A stretch of 64,000 nucleotides of DNA, from positions 1 through 64,000 of the forward strand of contig JABIKU010000032.1 of the NCBI GenBank assembly GCA_018654845.1. The letters are read 5' to 3'. Position 1 is the first letter of the stretch. Every line of letters begins with the position of its first letter. This DNA comes from Methanobacteriota archaeon. Lineage in GTDB: Archaea > Thermoplasmatota > Poseidoniia > Poseidoniales > Thalassarchaeaceae. Positions 1 through 11,195 of the stretch are shown one piece after another. The position numbers and the translations under genes are program-made. Below the pieces are notes generated by a model. It had not been told where the DNA came from and ran no database searches. It worked only from the letters and a program-made list of their open reading frames with translations.

Positions 1-2599
1 CATCTGCGCCCGAGTCAAAATTGGTCCAGTAAGTTGGACCCATATTGTCGAGAACGGCTTCTTTGAAGGAAGCCGCATCTTCATCACTAATTTCGCTAAA
101 GGTATGGATTTCGAAAACCGGTTGGACGTCTGAGCCAAAGTCTGGATTCATTGACCCGGCTCCTCTCAGGTCAAGGTAGAATCGTGAAACAGATTTTCCA
201 TACATGACTACATTTGTGACCGGTTCTACTTTTAGATCAACTGTCGAGCCAAAGTAAATTGGTAATCCACCCGGCATTACATCGAGGATTGTTCCTGTTC
301 CGAGTAATTTTGCTTGAATTTGGTGTGTCGAGGGGTCGAGATTTATGGTATGCTCTACCATAGGGATTCCCTTGTAGACCACATTGTCTCCAACGATACT
401 GTCTGCTGTAGCATAACCAACTAGATTTACTTTGAATGATTCATCAGCATCTCCAATACCGCCTATGGTTCCATTGAGGGTTGTATCTGCATTACCTACA
501 TGATCAGTCAATAATCCATATGTGGATTCTTCAGCAGCCGGAGCCCTCCATGGTAAATATTCACTCATGTCATAAATTTCGCCAGTTTCTCCACTGATGT
601 ATCCTTGAGCAATTCTATGTTCGACACTGTCGAGTCCGTCTGGACCACTTCCTGTGCTCATCTTGTAAACTGAATAATCTCCAGTACTGACTCCTTCTGA
701 TCCGTAATAGGTCATGTTTGTTTCCAAACTAACCCAGCCAAGAGTCATGTCGTTGATATCGCCAAGCGTATCTGCAACTGCGATATCTCTCCAACCATAG
801 AGCCAGTTATTGAGTGATTGAGTTGTATAAGGTGATGTTTCATATTGGAAAGCTAACAATGCCCCAACTACTTGGTCGAACATCAAATCCTTTACCCATG
901 ATCGTAGTGCTGATGCAGCTTCGGTATCGATTCCGTACATACCTGCAATTAATTCATCATTCCAATCAATCTGCGCTCCACCACTAACTGGAATGCCATC
1001 TGCTCCCGTTGGCAGTGTCTTTCCAGATAATTCACCATACATGAAAACTGTAGCAAAATCGCCGGTCAGTGCAAATGGGCCATCATAGAGAATTTCTCTA
1101 ACCTTTTCAGGTGCCAAATCAGCATCTCCTGCATGATCTGCTCTATTCAATCCAATTGATAGGTATCCCCCCTGAAGAGGTTCGACAGACCCGAATGAAA
1201 GTTGCCACCAAAGGTCAGCATTGATAGTGCCTTGCCCACCGATTAAAATCGCTTCAAATTCAGTCATTGTTCCAACCATACCAATCCACCCTCCAGCATA
1301 ATCCGCGAGCGCGAGTACTTGACCAAGATTGACGCTGTATTCTAACATCGTGCCGAATGGATCACCATCTGCTCCCAATAATAGAAGCGCGACACCGTTT
1401 AGTGGAATACCATTGAAATCAGTCTCAGTCAATAAGCCAGCACCTAATCCAGTCTCTTCATTGATTCCGAATAATAAATAATTCAAGGTATCTGGATTTG
1501 TAATGTCCATTCCATCATCGTACGGTATTCCATTTCCATTAGAATCCTGATTAATATAGGGGTCGGTTGCAGTTCGAAATCTCTCACGAAGGTTGTCTGC
1601 ACTTTCTAATTCTGCACCTCCTCCGTTTGATAGGAAAGTTGTTCCAGCCAATGCGTAAACAGTCCAGTCGATGAGGGTGGTGTCGAGACGGTCTGAATAT
1701 CCGTAAAGTGCTGCGCGGACTGCAGTAGTTTCGTCAGCCGGTTCACCGATTCCAGCAGCTAACATTGGTCCGATTTCACATGTTAATGCGATACAATTAC
1801 CAGTTGAAGGGTCTACTGCATCATAGAGAATATAATTCGCAACTTCAGTGAAGTCTGGATCCATAGGACTCGTACCTCCTGCTGAAGCATTCCAACTTGC
1901 ATAAGCTGCGTTAAGGTATGCGACCGGAGCCATTGCTGAAGCTGTGGCTTCGTCATATCCTGCTTGTACCAGTTGTGCGGCGACTCCATCTACCATCATA
2001 TTGATTTCAGCAGCTGACCAAATGCTTGGTGCACGGTTTTGTAAATCGTTAGCCATCATTGCGTTGGCAAATCCAGCTTTTGCGAAAATCTCACCATAAG
2101 TAATCCCAGTGGATAGACCAGCGATTTTCTGAGTATTGTATAGGATATTGACATTGGTTAGTTCGGTATCTCCCGATATCGATGCCTTTCCATCGTGAAT
2201 ACAATTTTCACACCAATCGAATACATCATATTCTGAATAAGTCATTTCTCCAGCATCTTCATCAAAAGCAAGAATTTCTCGATGGGTAGTTACTGTGTAT
2301 ATTGCAGGGCCAATCAATTCAAATTCAGGCGCATCTGTTTCGCCGGAATTTATTGCATCAATATTGGCAATATTATAGGCATAATATGCCCTCTCATCTG
2401 TAGAATTCATCCAACTTTCGTCACTTTCCCAATCTTCAAGGTTATCGCGACCATCTACGATTGCTCCCGCGACAGTTTCCGCGACAATTCCATCAACAAT
2501 CGAAGTCAAAACGACTGCATTTACAATCATCAGTAACATTCCAACAACTACAAAAATTGCCGGTATCATATTTTTATTTCCATTCAAATTTCCATTCAC
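1..2599 (-). CDS. CD36/LIMP-2 (scavenger receptor B)-like membrane protein, 3' end truncated by the window edge
   Basis: Open minus frame running off position 1 (absent from ORF track because it is open). Possible starts: GTG 2599 or ATG 2569; in-frame stop at 2621-2623. N-terminal TM (MIPAIFVVVGMLLMIVNAVVL), then NLEDWESDESWMNSTDERAYYAYNIANIDAINSGETDAPEFELIGPAIYTV, GDTELTNVNILYN, LYGWRD, VDLKVEPVTNVVMYGKSVSRFYLDL, VQPVFEIHTFSEISDEDAASFKEAV, matching CD36 landmarks in order. Confidence 0.65.
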   Translation of the reverse strand, partial: MNGNLNGNKNMIPAIFVVVGMLLMIVNAVVLTSIVDGIVAETVAGAIVDGRDNLEDWESDESWMNSTDERAYYAYNIANIDAINSGETDAPEFELIGPAIYTVTTHREILAFDEDAGEMTYSEYDVFDWCENCIHDGKASISGDTELTNVNILYNTQKIAGLSTGITYGEIFAKAGFANAMMANDLQNRAPSIWSAAEINMMVDGVAAQLVQAGYDEATASAMAPVAYLNAAYASWNASAGGTSPMDPDFTEVANYILYDAVDPSTGNCIALTCEIGPMLAAGIGEPADETTAVRAALYGYSDRLDTTLIDWTVYALAGTTFLSNGGGAELESADNLRERFRTATDPYINQDSNGNGIPYDDGMDITNPDTLNYLLFGINEETGLGAGLLTETDFNGIPLNGVALLLLGADGDPFGTMLEYSVNLGQVLALADYAGGWIGMVGTMTEFEAILIGGQGTINADLWWQLSFGSVEPLQGGYLSIGLNRADHAGDADLAPEKVREILYDGPFALTGDFATVFMYGELSGKTLPTGADGIPVSGGAQIDWNDELIAGMYGIDTEAASALRSWVKDLMFDQVVGALLAFQYETSPYTTQSLNNWLYGWRDIAVADTLGDINDMTLGWVSLETNMTYYGSEGVSTGDYSVYKMSTGSGPDGLDSVEHRIAQGYISGETGEIYDMSEYLPWRAPAAEESTYGLLTDHVGNADTTLNGTIGGIGDADESFKVNLVGYATADSIVGDNVVYKGIPMVEHTINLDPSTHQIQAKLLGTGTILDVMPGGLPIYFGSTVDLKVEPVTNVVMYGKSVSRFYLDLRGAGSMNPDFGSDVQPVFEIHTFSEISDEDAASFKEAVLDNMGPTYWTNFDSGAD

Positions 2600-2684
2600 G
2601 GTATCCACTGCTCTATGTGGTTACGAACGGGTTCCGAACATAAGCGTTCCAGTTACTGTTAGCAGGTGATTTAGATAGAATTGT

Positions 2685-4346: not shown

Positions 4347-5996
4347 TCAGCGTACATCTAAGCAAAAATAAATTGTATTTTCAAGTGGTAAATCTGCCAT
4401 TGTCAATCGACCAATCCAAGTCAAAGGTTCACCTGCATTTTCCTGTTGGCTGGATTCAGACCCGTCTCCTAGTAAGCATACTTGTTCAATAGATCCAGAA
4501 CGATTTACCCATTGGTTTCCATCTTCATCTGTCACCGCTTCACCGGTGATGCTGACTAATTTTCCAACCTCCCAACGCCATGAATCATATCCATCCCCCC
4601 AATTCAAGGCGGTGGGTTCAGGAGTATCTCCTAAGGTCCATGATCGAGCTTCGAGGATAATGCGACCTTCTGATTCGGACCAGATAACGGTCGCGTTGAA
4701 TCGGATTAATTGGTCCGCTTCAATCCATTCGACGTGTTCGCCAATTAAATGAATTCGTAATTTTGTATTTCGCGAGTAATAATCAGGGCCGTCGCCAACA
4801 TATCCCTTATCATAATCTGGAGAAATTGGATCTGTAATCCATCCTTCAAATGTGTAATTTTGATTTGCAAAACCGAATGGATTTTGAGCGACATCAAGCA
4901 TGTTTGTAGCACCATCGCCAATTTGACCATGAGGGTTACCGAATTCGGGTTGTTGACCTCGGTCAAGACAAATTACCGCTTCATCGGTTGCCCAAACAAG
5001 TCGGCCAGTCCATTCGTCTGAAATCCCATCGATATTATTCGAAATATCTTCTGGGGAGGCAAGAAGGCACAATCTGTCAGTAGGGGTTGGACCGAGTAGC
5101 CACCAATTTGTTCCATCAAATGATGCAGTGCCATCGATAATGACCATTTTACCGACATCATAAGTTAGCATATATGGCTCGACATCCCACTTAATTTTCA
5201 CAGGGTCTGCATAATTTAGAACTTCAACGGATGTTGCCTGAGCAATCAGGCGCCATCTCAAGGATCTCTCATCATATTGTAACCATCCAGAAACGATAAC
5301 ATGACTGCCTGCTTCGATTGTGCCTAATTCTGGCTCGAGACGACCTTCTACTTGCATGTAGAGAAGGTGGTCTGAATTTCCATAAGCAGGATTATCCATT
5401 AGGCTGAGCGATTGATAGGTGACGTTCGGCGATAATGCTTCACTGAGGTATCCTTCAATTTCAAGGGATTGGTTTGCATAATTTGAAGGATTTTGAGCGA
5501 CATGAACAAGAGTCTCTCCTCTAAATTGAATCACCTGCTCTTTCGCCGTAATCGCACCATAACCATTGGATTGTAACCAAATTCTTCCATTCCATTCAGA
5601 AACTTCTCCTTCTATTGTTACAACGCTACCAATAGGGGGGACGGTAACTGTCAGGTCGACATTCCATCTGATTTTTATTACAGAATTTCCATCATGTGAG
5701 GCGACCTGTAAATCTATTCTATTTGCCTGTTCACCATATGGATCTCTTACATAACTGGTTAAAATTCCTTCAATTTTCACTGTTTCTCGCGGAAAATTTT
5801 GAATATCCTCGATTTCAATCATATCTGGCTCACGGATAACCGCATAGAAATTCATCCCTGAAACCAAAAGGAGTGAAGTGAAGAACATCACCCATAACTT
5901 TCCCTCACCACCGGTTGGCTCAAATGGTGCTCTGAGAATTTTTGCCAGTCTCGATTCGTTAGTCATAACTACCGGCGGTAGTCGATAACGCTTCAA
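4347..5996 (-). CDS. Membrane-anchored exported protein with repeated OB-fold-like domains
   Basis: N-terminal TM (LWVMFFTSLLLVSGMNFYAV), then repeated beta-rich units (VHVAQNPSNYANQSLEIEGYLSEALSP / LDVAQNPFGFANQNYTFEGWITDPISP). ATG 5966 (MTNESRL) is an alternative start. Confidence 0.6.
   Translation of the reverse strand: MKRYRLPPVVMTNESRLAKILRAPFEPTGGEGKLWVMFFTSLLLVSGMNFYAVIREPDMIEIEDIQNFPRETVKIEGILTSYVRDPYGEQANRIDLQVASHDGNSVIKIRWNVDLTVTVPPIGSVVTIEGEVSEWNGRIWLQSNGYGAITAKEQVIQFRGETLVHVAQNPSNYANQSLEIEGYLSEALSPNVTYQSLSLMDNPAYGNSDHLLYMQVEGRLEPELGTIEAGSHVIVSGWLQYDERSLRWRLIAQATSVEVLNYADPVKIKWDVEPYMLTYDVGKMVIIDGTASFDGTNWWLLGPTPTDRLCLLASPEDISNNIDGISDEWTGRLVWATDEAVICLDRGQQPEFGNPHGQIGDGATNMLDVAQNPFGFANQNYTFEGWITDPISPDYDKGYVGDGPDYYSRNTKLRIHLIGEHVEWIEADQLIRFNATVIWSESEGRIILEARSWTLGDTPEPTALNWGDGYDSWRWEVGKLVSITGEAVTDEDGNQWVNRSGSIEQVCLLGDGSESSQQENAGEPLTWIGRLTMADLPLENTIYFCLDVR
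5968..5982. promoter_or_regulatory. Inverted repeat ACTACC-GGC-GGTAGT abutting alternative start codon 5966
   Basis: Perfect 6-bp stem read directly; one base from ATG at 5966 (minus). Would be coding if the start is 5996. Confidence 0.35.
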
Positions 5997-6075
5997 GGTT
6001 GAGAGGTAATCAACTGGCGGAATTTAAAATTGACATAAGATAAGTTCATCTCCGATTGTTCGATGAGACGACTCA

Positions 6076-6152
6076 GGACCCGTAGCTCAGTTGGTTAGAG
6101 CGCTCGGCTCATAACCGAGTGGCCACCGGTTCAAATCCGGTCGGGTCCACCA
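6076..6152 (+). tRNA. tRNA-Met(CAT), elongator type, 3' CCA encoded
   Basis: GGACCCG...CGGGTCC acceptor stem, CTCGG-CTCATAA-CCGAG anticodon arm, CCGG-TTCAAAT-CCGG T arm; discriminator A then CCA. Anticodon stem lacks the three consecutive G:C pairs of an initiator. Confidence 0.93.
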
Positions 6153-6387
6153 TCTTTCAAATCGTATACAACTCGAGAATGCTAACTTTGAGAAGGATTG
6201 GGAATTGTAATATTTTGGTGAATTAATTAGCCTAGATTTACTAGAATTAGCCCAATTTTGTACTTTTTCACCCTGCTATGAAATTTCGTTTCTCTATCTC
6301 CCAATTATTGATTAGGTTGGATTTTGATGCTTTTCGCCACACTCAACGTGAGAAGGCTCAAATACGGTCTTTGGCGGCATTCGGTTA

Positions 6388-7323
6388 ATGAAGTCGGCAC
6401 GCTCGGTTAGACCTGTCTTGATGATACTCGCTGTGTACATGCTCAGCATGTTCGCAGGCGTTGCTGCTGTGCAAGCACAGAATCCAACTCCAGATATCAC
6501 TCTGACATGTGATAATCCTCAACCTATCGAGGTTTATCCTGGTTCAACCAGAACAGCAATTATCAATTGTAAATTAGATAATCCAACGATTTATTCAGAG
6601 AAAGTTAACATCCAGATTCAATCTGGTGCTCTCATCTCTGCTGGACCTGCTTCTCTGACTGTTGGAGCAGGTGGTGTGGTGAATTTCCAAGTCATCCTTC
6701 GGGGTGAGTTGCGAATGGCTGAGGGGCAGCATCAAATTTCGATAACCGCAGAAGTAGTACAGGCAAATGGGGTAACAGTCGTTGGTACTCCTACAACTTA
6801 CAAGGTTCTTGCAGTGATTAAACAATTCAGCAGGCTCCGAGTTGCGTCCGAGATCGCCTTCCTTCAACTCAGACCTAAAGTCGATTACAATCTAGTATTC
6901 GATTTATACAATGACGGAAATGCAATGGATAGATTTAATGTTGAAATTTCAAATTATGACGAATTAAATGATGAAGGATTCCAGTTAAGTATTCCTCTGG
7001 TTTCGGTTGAAATTGAATCGATGTCTCCTGCTGAAAAGGTTAGAATACAAATGAGAACTCCTAAAAATCAAGGTTGGACTGATAAATATTTTAATTTACA
7101 ATTCAAAGCAACTTCTGAGTATTCTGTTAGAACAGAAGGAATTCCAAATTATCAGATTCAAACTGTAACAATTTACATTCGTGGAGTTTATCTCCCTGGA
7201 TTCGAATTACTAGGCACTTCGATGATCACAGCTCTTGCAGCAGCAGCCTTCGCTGGCCGATATCGTAGTGATGAAGAAGAAGACTCAGAACTTCCCAATG
7301 AATTAGATGCCCGACTTTTCTGA
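6388..7323 (+). CDS. Exported protein with signal peptide, beta-sandwich (NEW3/CARDB-like) ectodomain and C-terminal TM
   Basis: MKSARSVRPVLMILAVYMLSMFAGVAAVQA signal; C-terminal LLGTSMITALAAAAFAGRYRSDEEED anchor. Confidence 0.7.
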   Translation: MKSARSVRPVLMILAVYMLSMFAGVAAVQAQNPTPDITLTCDNPQPIEVYPGSTRTAIINCKLDNPTIYSEKVNIQIQSGALISAGPASLTVGAGGVVNFQVILRGELRMAEGQHQISITAEVVQANGVTVVGTPTTYKVLAVIKQFSRLRVASEIAFLQLRPKVDYNLVFDLYNDGNAMDRFNVEISNYDELNDEGFQLSIPLVSVEIESMSPAEKVRIQMRTPKNQGWTDKYFNLQFKATSEYSVRTEGIPNYQIQTVTIYIRGVYLPGFELLGTSMITALAAAAFAGRYRSDEEEDSELPNELDARLF

Positions 7324-7415: not shown

Positions 7416-8714
7416 ATGAGTGATGGCGGTCTTCTACAGAAAGCAATCGAACAACAATCTGAATCTGACACGGTAATAGACGGTGTTGTTTCAACAAGTA
7501 ATTCAAGTTCTATCGTCTCATCAGGTTCCAAACCAATTTCATTCGTTGGAATGATAAAAATATTATTTATTGGCGCTATTCTACCATTTTTTCTACTAAT
7601 GTGGTTTGGAATATATATCGATTTGATTCCGATCACAATATTAACTCCTCTTGTTATTTCAGCAACTCTTGTGTTTGTTTGGTGGAAATTAGACGTAGGA
7701 TTGCCAACAATACTAGGTGGGAACGGATTCGATTTGAAAAAATTATTCGCCGTCGTAATGACGTACATGATACTGGTTGGCACCCCTTTTGTCTTTGCAA
7801 CAATTTTTGTAGGCGATATCTCTCTTGGTGAGGTGGAATTCAATGATGATGGTTCACAATTAACAGTTAAAATACGTCAGAATGGAGGGGGTGGGACTCA
7901 CGATGCTATGGTGAGCGTTTTCCACACCAATCAAGAAGTTTGGAGTAGTACCGAATCATTTACGTTCAACAAAGAAGATTATCAAGGAGATTATGGGCAA
8001 TTTACAATTAATACGTTAGATTTCTGGGATGGAAATTCACTCCCTTCACTTTCTAATAATTATTCTATTCAAGTAAAAATTGGAGATTACACCTCCGATG
8101 CTGAATTAGATCCGATGGTGATGACTAGAGTGGTTACCGCTGCACTATCATCAAGTATCGGCTCAATAAGTAATAATGCTGATGATTGCGAAGGTGAGGA
8201 CAAAGAAACTTGTATTGTTGCCGTAGGACTTACTACATGGGCAGGAATAACATCATTAGAAGACTATCCGGGGCCATTATCCTATGCCGATTACACCATT
8301 AAGGCCACCTTATATTATGAAAACCATGTTGCTATTGATTATCCAATAATTACAGTTGTTAAAACCGAAGCTACTTGGGAATCGATGTCGGGTAAGTTTG
8401 GAACTGGTAGTGGCACTGTTGGTATCGACGGTTCCCAACTCGCCTTAACCGGGTCGGCCGATGACAATAGCTTAGGCATGTCTGTAATTCCTAAATCTGA
8501 TTGGGAAGAGAGTGATTTTGGTTGCTACACATTCACTGTGGAAGTGATGTCTTCGGATGAATGGAGTGACGAAGCGGATTCTGTAATTTCTTCATCATAT
8601 TATTTGTATGAAGAAACCGGCTCACACTCTGGGTCTGGTCCACCTAATCCCTCTGACCCTCATGGTGCCACTGATGAGGCATGGACTGAATTAGTAGATG
8701 GCGAGACCTGTTAG
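7416..8714 (+). CDS. Polytopic N-terminal membrane protein with exported C-terminal domain, unknown function
   Basis: 432 aa; several TMs in the first ~135 residues, then a beta-rich soluble region. Confidence 0.65.
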   Translation: MSDGGLLQKAIEQQSESDTVIDGVVSTSNSSSIVSSGSKPISFVGMIKILFIGAILPFFLLMWFGIYIDLIPITILTPLVISATLVFVWWKLDVGLPTILGGNGFDLKKLFAVVMTYMILVGTPFVFATIFVGDISLGEVEFNDDGSQLTVKIRQNGGGGTHDAMVSVFHTNQEVWSSTESFTFNKEDYQGDYGQFTINTLDFWDGNSLPSLSNNYSIQVKIGDYTSDAELDPMVMTRVVTAALSSSIGSISNNADDCEGEDKETCIVAVGLTTWAGITSLEDYPGPLSYADYTIKATLYYENHVAIDYPIITVVKTEATWESMSGKFGTGSGTVGIDGSQLALTGSADDNSLGMSVIPKSDWEESDFGCYTFTVEVMSSDEWSDEADSVISSSYYLYEETGSHSGSGPPNPSDPHGATDEAWTELVDGETC

Positions 8715-8716
8715 AA

Positions 8717-10471
8717 TTATTCGCCCTTGTCGTATTCGTAATCGTCATCGATGAAATCTTCCTCCTCATCTTTTTGCTTGACGAAATTATTGAAGTAATA
8801 ATAACCGGCTCCGATCATTGTCAATGCAGTGGCGATAAGGATTGGAATTATCGACATACTTTCTTCTTCAATAGGTTGTATCCATGTAATTACACCAGTA
8901 GTTCTCAAACCTCCACCGAATGCATCGTCCTCGACTAGTTGAGTTGGTGTCAGTACTCGGCAGGTTAGGCTTGCATTGCCTTGGTTTGCATTTCTCCAAC
9001 CAAATGAAATTTCGAGAGATTCTCCAGCATCGATAACTGCATTTTGATATCCCCCAATATCTGCAGCTTCACCAGTTTCTGCAATGTCACAAGTGAAGAA
9101 AAAATTAGCCGGAGCCGTACCACGATTTGCTAGTCGAGCGAGAATTGGAACGGAGTGAACAGTCGAGCTTTCAGTAACTTCATCTGTCATAGCCAGTGAT
9201 TCCCATTGGATATTAGGAATATTAGAATCGATTACAATTTGTTTTTCCCAAGTTAGAGGAATCATTTGTGGCCCATAATTCCCAATATCATTTTCTAGTG
9301 TTTCTGGATTCCAAGCAGTTCTATACGATGTGATTATTATATTCGCATTTTCATTGGTAATACTACCATCAGCCCAACCAATTTCAATAACTCTTTCTTC
9401 CCCTCCTACAATGTACGAAACTCCATCGTCTCCACTCACATTGTTAAATTCCAAATCTCCACTCGGACTCTCTCCTAATACACTATAGAAAACGCCTATT
9501 GCATCGAACTGAATCGATTGACCCCTGATTCGCCTTTCCCATCGATCGATAATTTCAACACTCGTTTCGACATTATCTCCCCACTGTATTACCGATTCTG
9601 GAAATGCTCTGACATAGTGGTCATCGTGACTTCCTGAAAGTATCGAAAATCCTCTGATGTCAATTTCTGCTGTATTCGATTCTAAAAATATTGGAGCACT
9701 ATTTTCAATAACTGAATCATCGATTGTGATTGAGCCATCTGAATTTATTTTTCCACCTTGCATAGTAGATGAAATTAATTCGATATTTCCAGACGAATCA
9801 ATCGTAAACCCTGCCTCGCCCTCAATCATCATATTGTGATATTCTAATTCAATACCTAGCAGTTCATCGATTAAGGTGCCTGTAGACATCATAGTCTGAA
9901 TTTTTGATAGGGTAACTGGAGCGAATCCAAAGGCCGTTAATCCTACCCAAATATCCTCTGTTCCAGCAGGGAATGAGAGAGTATATTCCCCTCCATTCAT
10001 CTCGATTGGTTCACTGCCTTCGATATGTGCATGTGCTCCATCAAATGAAAGTCCATCAACTGGAAATAAAGTTGCATCGAATGATTCATTATAGCCTCCC
10101 CGTGGAATTAGAATTCGAGAGCGGTTTTCCTCATCCCAATATGTCGATGAAATTAGGGATGTTGGAGGGGAATTTGCATTTAGTATTGATGAATCGAGTC
10201 GTAGACTGCTTCCTTCAGCAATTTCGATACTCGATCCAGCCATCATGGTAATCTCCGCGTTATTAATCGTCAGACTACCTCCATCTACAATCGAGATTAA
10301 TCCAGTAATCGATTCGTCATTTTCCCAAATAGTATCCGAATCGATGGTTATCGTATCATTAGAGTCAGCAAATACAATTGATGAGGATAAGATTGCTATG
10401 ACCGATGTAATAATCAGAGTTGTTTGTATTACTGCCGCAGTACGAGACATAATTCTGTGGCGGCGAATCAT
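8717..10471 (-). CDS. Cell-surface protein with signal peptide, repetitive beta (solenoid-like) region and C-terminal TM with acidic tail
   Basis: N-terminal hydrophobic signal; repeated ITIDS/SLTINNAEITM units; C-terminal TM SIIPILIATALTMIGAGYYYF then KDEEEDFIDDDYEYDKGE. Confidence 0.65.
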   Translation of the reverse strand: MIRRHRIMSRTAAVIQTTLIITSVIAILSSSIVFADSNDTITIDSDTIWENDESITGLISIVDGGSLTINNAEITMMAGSSIEIAEGSSLRLDSSILNANSPPTSLISSTYWDEENRSRILIPRGGYNESFDATLFPVDGLSFDGAHAHIEGSEPIEMNGGEYTLSFPAGTEDIWVGLTAFGFAPVTLSKIQTMMSTGTLIDELLGIELEYHNMMIEGEAGFTIDSSGNIELISSTMQGGKINSDGSITIDDSVIENSAPIFLESNTAEIDIRGFSILSGSHDDHYVRAFPESVIQWGDNVETSVEIIDRWERRIRGQSIQFDAIGVFYSVLGESPSGDLEFNNVSGDDGVSYIVGGEERVIEIGWADGSITNENANIIITSYRTAWNPETLENDIGNYGPQMIPLTWEKQIVIDSNIPNIQWESLAMTDEVTESSTVHSVPILARLANRGTAPANFFFTCDIAETGEAADIGGYQNAVIDAGESLEISFGWRNANQGNASLTCRVLTPTQLVEDDAFGGGLRTTGVITWIQPIEEESMSIIPILIATALTMIGAGYYYFNNFVKQKDEEEDFIDDDYEYDKGE

Positions 10472-10544
10472 CTCAATTAAGAGTTCGATTCTTTGTGAAG
10501 GGTTGGCGAGGGTTCATGTCCCCAATCTACTCGCACGCATTTGT

Positions 10545-11195
10545 ATGTCTATAGCCGGACTCCCAATGGATATCGCTACTGTGTTATTGATTGCAGGGCC
10601 GGCATATTTGGCAAATACTGGTGCAATGCTATTCGGCAAGTGGTTGCCAGAAAAATATAATCTTCCTAAATTTGTTATTGATGGCGGTAAGGACTGGCGA
10701 GATGGCAATCGTATTCTAGGTGATGGTAAATCCTGGAATGGATTGTTTGGTGGAGCATTTTTATCAGGTCTATTGATGATGTTGACTCATTTTTTGTTTT
10801 TTGAACAGGGGTTTGAGTCTAAACCATTTGTTGACCCTCTCTTTTTTGCAAACGAATCACACTGGTTTTGGTTTGGTAATGAGTGGAGCGCCGCTTTTAC
10901 TATGGGATTCATCCTTGGTTTCGGGTGCTTAGTCGGAGATTCTCTCGGTTCTTTTGTGAAGCGTAGGAGGGGTTTGAGGCGTGAAGGAGAAATCAGTTCG
11001 AAAGCACCAATTTTGGATACATTGCCATTTGCAATTATGATTTTTGTATTTGCGTTTGCATTTTTCCCAGAACAAATAATAGTCGATGAGAACTTTAATA
11101 ATTCTATTATTGGATTGATTATTTTCACTCCGATTATTCATCGTTCGTTCAATATTTTTGGCCATAAAGTCGGACTAAAAGATGTGCCATATTGA
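10545..11195 (+). CDS. carS: CDP-archaeol synthase
   Basis: GPAYLANTGAMLFGKWLP, GDGKSWNGLFGGAFLSG and GCLVGDSLGSFVKRRRGLRREGE motifs. Upstream part of ORF 10245.. overlaps the divergent gene, so the start is placed at 10545 (or 10566). Confidence 0.85.
   Translation: MSIAGLPMDIATVLLIAGPAYLANTGAMLFGKWLPEKYNLPKFVIDGGKDWRDGNRILGDGKSWNGLFGGAFLSGLLMMLTHFLFFEQGFESKPFVDPLFFANESHWFWFGNEWSAAFTMGFILGFGCLVGDSLGSFVKRRRGLRREGEISSKAPILDTLPFAIMIFVFAFAFFPEQIIVDENFNNSIIGLIIFTPIIHRSFNIFGHKVGLKDVPY

Follow-up and report, generated by a model that had tools for sequence, protein, structure and literature searches.

A CD36/LIMP-2-type protein family with a large insert in Poseidoniales archaea

CD36-family proteins have been studied as animal receptors for lipids and pathogens. 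The class B scavenger receptors (SR-Bs) are defined operationally by a CD36 ectodomain lying between two transmembrane (TM) helices (PMC10715195), and the family-wide survey, which covered eukaryotes alone, traced it back to LECA. CD36 holds palmitate. In LIMP-2, cholesterol and phosphatidylcholine occupy a tunnel that runs along the ectodomain (PMC5712522). In eukaryotic members, every expansion of the apex sits at alpha4 and alpha5, two helices of the ligand-interacting bundle (PMC10715195). Two to three disulfides are found in the metazoan members; the pairs are missing in the non-metazoan ones, and disulfides are therefore not family-defining. A further branch of the same fold is known from Actinobacteria, where LmcA encloses cavities (PMC8972800) and PgfA binds trehalose monomycolate (PMC9678360); DUF3068 was described in 2022 as exclusive to actinobacteria (PMC9678360). 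The statement in the initial annotation of the locus that the family is known mainly from eukaryotes holds apart from this LmcA/PgfA branch, which it overlooked, and this is the sole point at which that annotation is corrected here.

The window, that is, the whole stretch of DNA that was analysed, comprises 64,000 bases (bases 1–64000 of contig C36, of 68,007 bp) of a 1.55-Mb genome. A CD36/SR-B-family gene occupies positions 2..2608 of its minus strand. The open frame starts with GTG, has 869 aa readable and runs off the contig start, so that its 3′ end is cut; the next in-frame GTG, at 2599, is the start position given earlier. Since the contig begins at window base 1, the missing ~37 aa are unreadable from this assembly. 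A complete copy of 906 aa, 96% identical, is carried by a Ca. Poseidoniales MAG (L073:4668-7388, DUAE01000043.1). The parts of the gene, all on the minus strand, follow from the N terminus. The TM helix proposed in the initial annotation is recovered by hydropathy at aa 10–46 (2471..2581) and as helix 14–52 of an AlphaFold2 model. The N-terminal part of the CD36 barrel (aa 47–165; 2114..2470) is delimited by the PF01130 stretch, the alignment and the modelled strands 68–80, 96–116 and 121–132, and contains W66, G100-P101, Y124 and N154-I155, invariant in the alignment of relatives. The apex insert (aa 166–559; 932..2113) is placed by the model and by its position between the CD36-profile stretches of relatives. 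The C-terminal part of the barrel (aa 560–869; 2..931), assigned through a profile that reaches LIMP-2, includes the motif WLYGWRD (aa 602–608; 785..805), equivalent to LLWGYKD of LIMP-2, in which W602, L603, G605 and D608 are invariant among relatives. It also includes the strand KVEPVTN...SRFYLDLRG (aa 790–816; 161..241), equivalent to the EPxTG strand of CD36 and similar as well to the VEPxTG strand of PorA/PgfA. No Cys is invariant or near-invariant in the C-terminal half of the alignment, and the disulfide feature is thus absent.

The peptide blocks that had been cited in favor of a CD36 relationship are all present in the order given, and profile searches show them to be collinear with LIMP-2. 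The match of the window protein to PF01130 is significant (aa 22–192; E 3.8e-11; 42.6 bits against a cut-off of 26.5), as that proposal would demand, and 30 of 30 full-length relatives match the same profile at E<=0.1, the best at 1.6e-20. Several relatives possess a second collinear PF01130 stretch past the insert. For instance, one frame of 901 aa covers profile positions 4–133 and 147–253. PF01130 scores over cut-off in 58 of 296 genomes of the phylum, and no match to the family was obtained in 14 well-known control genomes. A single-sequence phmmer search of the PDB with the window protein returned no match, and a profile was therefore needed. The profile of 30 family sequences found LIMP-2 at 2.1e-6 to 5.6e-6 and CD36 at 0.0087, with no other PDB chain at E<=10. 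It aligns with LIMP-2 in three collinear blocks: the N-terminal block with 20–103, tQsvnnWLyGwhD with 128–166, and the EPxTG strand plus the final block with 344–410. To rule out a match driven by the N terminus, the C-terminal half (aa 560–865) was profiled alone. All seven PDB chains found at E<=10 were LIMP-2; the matches are weak (E 1.1–6.2), lie in the right order, and span the WLyGWrD hinge, the EPxTG strand and the block after it. The archaeal protein is almost certainly a bona fide member of the CD36/SR-B/LIMP-2 superfamily.

The fold was predicted with AlphaFold2 for the complete L073 protein (61 sequences; pLDDT 82.8; pTM 0.73) and, as its own query, for a paralogue ~34% identical (42 sequences; pLDDT 75.1); the two alignments have many rows in common, and the models are thus not fully independent. 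All 13 PDB matches of the L073 model at E<=1e-3 in Foldseek are CD36/LIMP-2 (best 5LGD, 8.8e-7, probability 1.00). The paralogue model likewise retrieved 12 chains at E<=1e-3, CD36/LIMP-2 only (best 1.2e-6, probability 1.00). The LIMP-2-type fold anticipated for the protein is thereby what both models return, and no fold match was found among viral structures. Next after CD36/LIMP-2 comes mycobacterial LmcA, with three matches of the L073 model at E 0.02–0.05. The TM-scores of both models, normalised to the CD36/LIMP-2 target, are 0.38–0.44 with rmsd of 6–13 Å; the fold assignment is firm, yet the barrel does not superpose closely when treated as one rigid body. Within this range of scores, the models predict the asymmetric beta-barrel of CD36/SR-B. 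An LmcA-type barrel devoid of the apex bundle does not appear to describe the protein, given that LmcA ranks behind CD36/LIMP-2 in the models and a large apex is predicted. A simple hydropathy scan identified a hydrophobic segment at each end in 35 of 36 complete relatives, and the terminal helices of the L073 model are 14–52 and 868–905. The topology is that of class B, with an N-terminal TM helix, a large ectodomain and a C-terminal TM helix, and the relatives conform to the two-TM definition.

The insert of about 400 aa that had been noted between the N-terminal and central blocks measures ~395 aa (aa 166–559) and is mostly helical in the model. It is conserved across the order, with a mean column identity of 32% in 24 sequences, and its length differs among lineages; no sequence relative of the insert was found in the PDB at E<=1. 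Relatives having two profile stretches place the insertion between CD36-profile positions ~134 and ~140. The insert starts within helix 165–215 and ends at helix 562–589, after which come a strand and the WLyGWrD hinge, corresponding to LIMP-2 127–166. The helices on either side of the insert thus match alpha4 and alpha5, where the long-apex SR-Bs of protists are expanded too. As judged from the model, the archaeal family shares with eukaryotic SR-Bs the variation in length at alpha4/alpha5.

By profile search the family is present in 172 of the 195 genomes of Poseidoniales (31 of the 34 best), in both families of the order, including a single-contig genome of ~2.06 Mb. Genomes outside Poseidoniales in a 292-genome sample of the phylum did not contain it, nor did plasmids and phages; among defence (PADLOC) and phage (PHROGs) families nothing notable was found. 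Genus g9 (8/8 listed members) and genus g16 (3/3) have no CD36-type gene, which looks like loss at the genus level. A tree of 37 proteins resolves two deep groups, mainly along the two families of the order, and some genera (g5) have one gene of each deep group, head to head. The two deep groups and the head-to-head pairs argue for a long history of the family in the order, during which some duplication or transfer took place. Diverged paralogues in this arrangement are found at L037:5419-8028(-) and 8115-10667(+), and also at L145 and L147; an AIM24-family gene adjoins the pair. The single-contig genome (G015) has a CD36-type gene in two overlapping frames, L044:4544-5539(-) and 5500-7236(-), and an intact second copy, L045; the split gene is a frameshifted copy or an assembly error. 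A contig filed under 'Pedosphaera sp. ARS72' (L100, NYYT01000082.1) bears an MGIIb-type CD36 gene; its N terminus hardly differs from those in other MGIIb records, and the contig is probably mis-binned.

Directly upstream of the gene, on the same strand, is a TctA-family membrane protein (PF01970; 2685..4337, minus strand), an arrangement found at 32 of 74 loci. The second gene upstream (4347..5996, minus strand; 31 of 74 loci) encodes an N-terminal hydrophobic stretch and has no Pfam match. An acyltransferase-3/HGSNAT-like gene lies downstream at 51 of 74 loci (L073:11279-12352), and a PLD/LTD protein is near the CD36-type gene at 27 of 74. The synteny is local and other lineages have quite different neighbours; since the neighbours vary, no pathway is inferred from operon context. 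Co-loss of the CD36-type gene with beta-oxidation was considered and is not seen: acyl-CoA dehydrogenase is present in all sampled genomes of the two CD36-less genera, and 3-hydroxyacyl-CoA dehydrogenase in all but one. As these genera keep the enzymes, the gene is neither strictly required for fatty-acid oxidation nor tied to it. Separately, some Thalassarchaeaceae genera have a second 3-hydroxyacyl-CoA dehydrogenase of ~800 aa with an acyl-CoA dehydrogenase of ~600 aa nearby (G000:C1:94571-97726; equivalents in G045, G129, G152, G182 and G185); it is confined to those genera, and the sampled genomes of the order's second family do not have it.

Lipid is held by LIMP-2, CD36 and PgfA and cavities are enclosed by LmcA, and a role as a surface lipid receptor or transfer protein of the tunnel type is therefore proposed for the archaeal protein, with a probability of roughly 0.6. 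The protein would sit in the cytoplasmic membrane of Marine Group II (MGII) archaea, held there by a single TM helix at either terminus. Its ectodomain would be an asymmetric beta-barrel on which a helical apex of ~395 aa replaces the short three-helix bundle. The apex may dock or sense hydrophobic cargo outside the cell, such as fatty acids, lipid of algal or particle origin, or something that carries these. The lipid would then be held in an internal cavity of the barrel, and cargo would travel along the barrel, either reaching the membrane's outer face or leaving it. The cavity, the binding of lipid and the transfer through a tunnel are suggested by analogy with the family. Uptake of environmental fatty acid would fit the lifestyle described for MGII, which are reported as degraders of fatty acids and protein (PMC6336850, PMC6461757).

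Alternatively, a protein of CD36 fold may work in the manner of PgfA/LmcA and move lipids of the archaeon's own envelope, or glycans linked to lipid, outward, instead of importing food lipid. The existence of PorA/PgfA-type cousins in the same phylum bears on this possibility. PF11271 (PorA/DUF3068) exceeds its cut-off in 24 of the 118 genomes sampled from the phylum (L158-L184; G107, G061, G057, G003, G084, G082 and others). These archaeal proteins are mostly 540–1060 aa long, with a TM helix at both ends and a tandem array of two to four PorA domains, and one is a single domain of 316 aa. A profile of the set finds LmcA at 2.2e-7 and also matches the NCBIfam PgfA model, with a score inflated by the multiple domains. 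The sister family f3 of the same class has the PorA/PgfA type in 16 of its 21 genomes and lacks CD36, and Poseidoniales have CD36 with no PorA over cut-off; the two are complementary, a replacement-like pattern that speaks for this alternative. The position of LmcA as the structural neighbor next after CD36, the near-core distribution of the family, which suits a housekeeping role, and the acyltransferase-3/HGSNAT-like gene downstream at most loci point the same way.

Membership of the window protein in PorA/DUF3068 was examined, as the initial annotation had advised, and rejected. PF11271 does not match the window protein, NF053601 does not match the complete L073 copy, and LmcA stands behind CD36 structurally; among the 30 relatives, PF11271 gives weak matches below cut-off in two. 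Cross-matches between the types are weak (a CD36-type protein against PorA, 0.0058; a PorA-type protein against CD36, 0.0077). When the archaeal CD36 set was aligned to the PorA tandem set with hhalign, the match was not significant (probability 0.5%, E 0.11; the VEPxTG strand alone aligned), and the link between CD36 and PorA thus rests on structure and the weak cross-matches. We read the CD36 and PorA types as two branches of one superfamily, for which the main support is structural (PMC8972800). Against outward transport of envelope lipids are the lack of a PorA match in the window protein, the large apex, which is missing in LmcA, and the loss of the CD36-type gene from whole genera, which shows that it is not essential. 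Moreover, these archaea are not known to have a mycolate-like outer membrane. Such a role is less probable than that of a surface lipid receptor or transfer protein.

The protein may also be an adhesin or particle receptor, with an apex that binds protein or polysaccharide surfaces and a barrel that is a scaffold only. MGII are thought to attach to particles, no other part is as enlarged as the apex, whose length differs by lineage, and the apex bundle binds protein partners in LIMP-2 and CD36 (PMC5712522). However, the C-terminal half of the barrel shows stronger conservation than the apex (mean column identity 45% against 32%, from two non-identical sequence sets), a pattern that would be surprising if the barrel were only a scaffold, and adhesion as the sole function is improbable. 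That a eukaryotic gene was mis-binned into archaeal assemblies, or that the N-terminal hydrophobic helix produced a chance HMM match, is suggested only by the position of the gene at the edge of a draft-assembly contig and can be set aside, since the family occurs in 172 of 195 genomes, which excludes eukaryotic contamination, and in a single-contig genome and many separate assemblies, in uninterrupted frames with archaeal neighbours, and since CD36 is also where the profile of the C-terminal half and both fold searches point.

The reading as a surface lipid receptor makes the family a candidate for surface lipid handling by the uncultured, fatty-acid-degrading archaea of Marine Group II. No report joining CD36 with MGII/Poseidoniales, or on archaeal CD36, was found in the literature searched, which took in few subscription journals and few preprints. 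Because these proteins already exceed the PF01130 cut-off, some may well carry the label 'CD36 family' in automatic annotation. Three things seem not to have been described before: the occurrence of the family across the order, its archaeal apex, and its link to PorA/PgfA proteins of the same phylum. The archaeal family ties CD36 to mycobacterial PgfA/LmcA, and, being near-universal in highly abundant planktonic archaea, can serve as an outgroup or donor for testing the origin of CD36. It is possible, as a tentative suggestion, that CD36/SR-B is not a eukaryotic invention and has prokaryotic roots in an LmcA/PgfA-like carrier, the MGII proteins being the closest prokaryotic relatives and forming an environmental-lipid receptor with its own apex.

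Compared with known systems, the family is nearest to the eukaryotic SR-Bs (LIMP-2/SCARB2, 4F7B and 4Q4B; CD36/SCARB3, 5LGD), with which it shares PF01130, the collinear blocks, the two-TM topology, the predicted fold and the site of expansion at the alpha4/alpha5 apex. It differs from them in its size of ~900 aa, the ~395-aa insert, the lack of a conserved cysteine in the C-terminal half, and a moderate TM-score. The long-apex SR-Bs of protists (oomycete, ciliate, and amoebozoan LmpA; PMC10715195) likewise have an ectodomain well over 500 aa, the same expansion site and no CD36 disulfide pairs; their expansions are described as lineage-specific (PMC10715195). PorA/DUF3068/LmcA (7N3V, 7SHW) and PgfA of Actinobacteria have a membrane-anchored, CD36-like barrel with cavities and a function in envelope lipids, but are ~300 aa long with a single helix in place of the apex bundle, and proteins of the window type do not match PF11271/NF053601. 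The archaeal tandem proteins of PorA/PgfA type resemble the family in having a TM helix at each end and in belonging to the same phylum, and for f3 to the same class. They are probable cousins within the CD36 superfamily, built of two to four PorA domains, whereas the protein described here has one CD36 domain with an apex insert.
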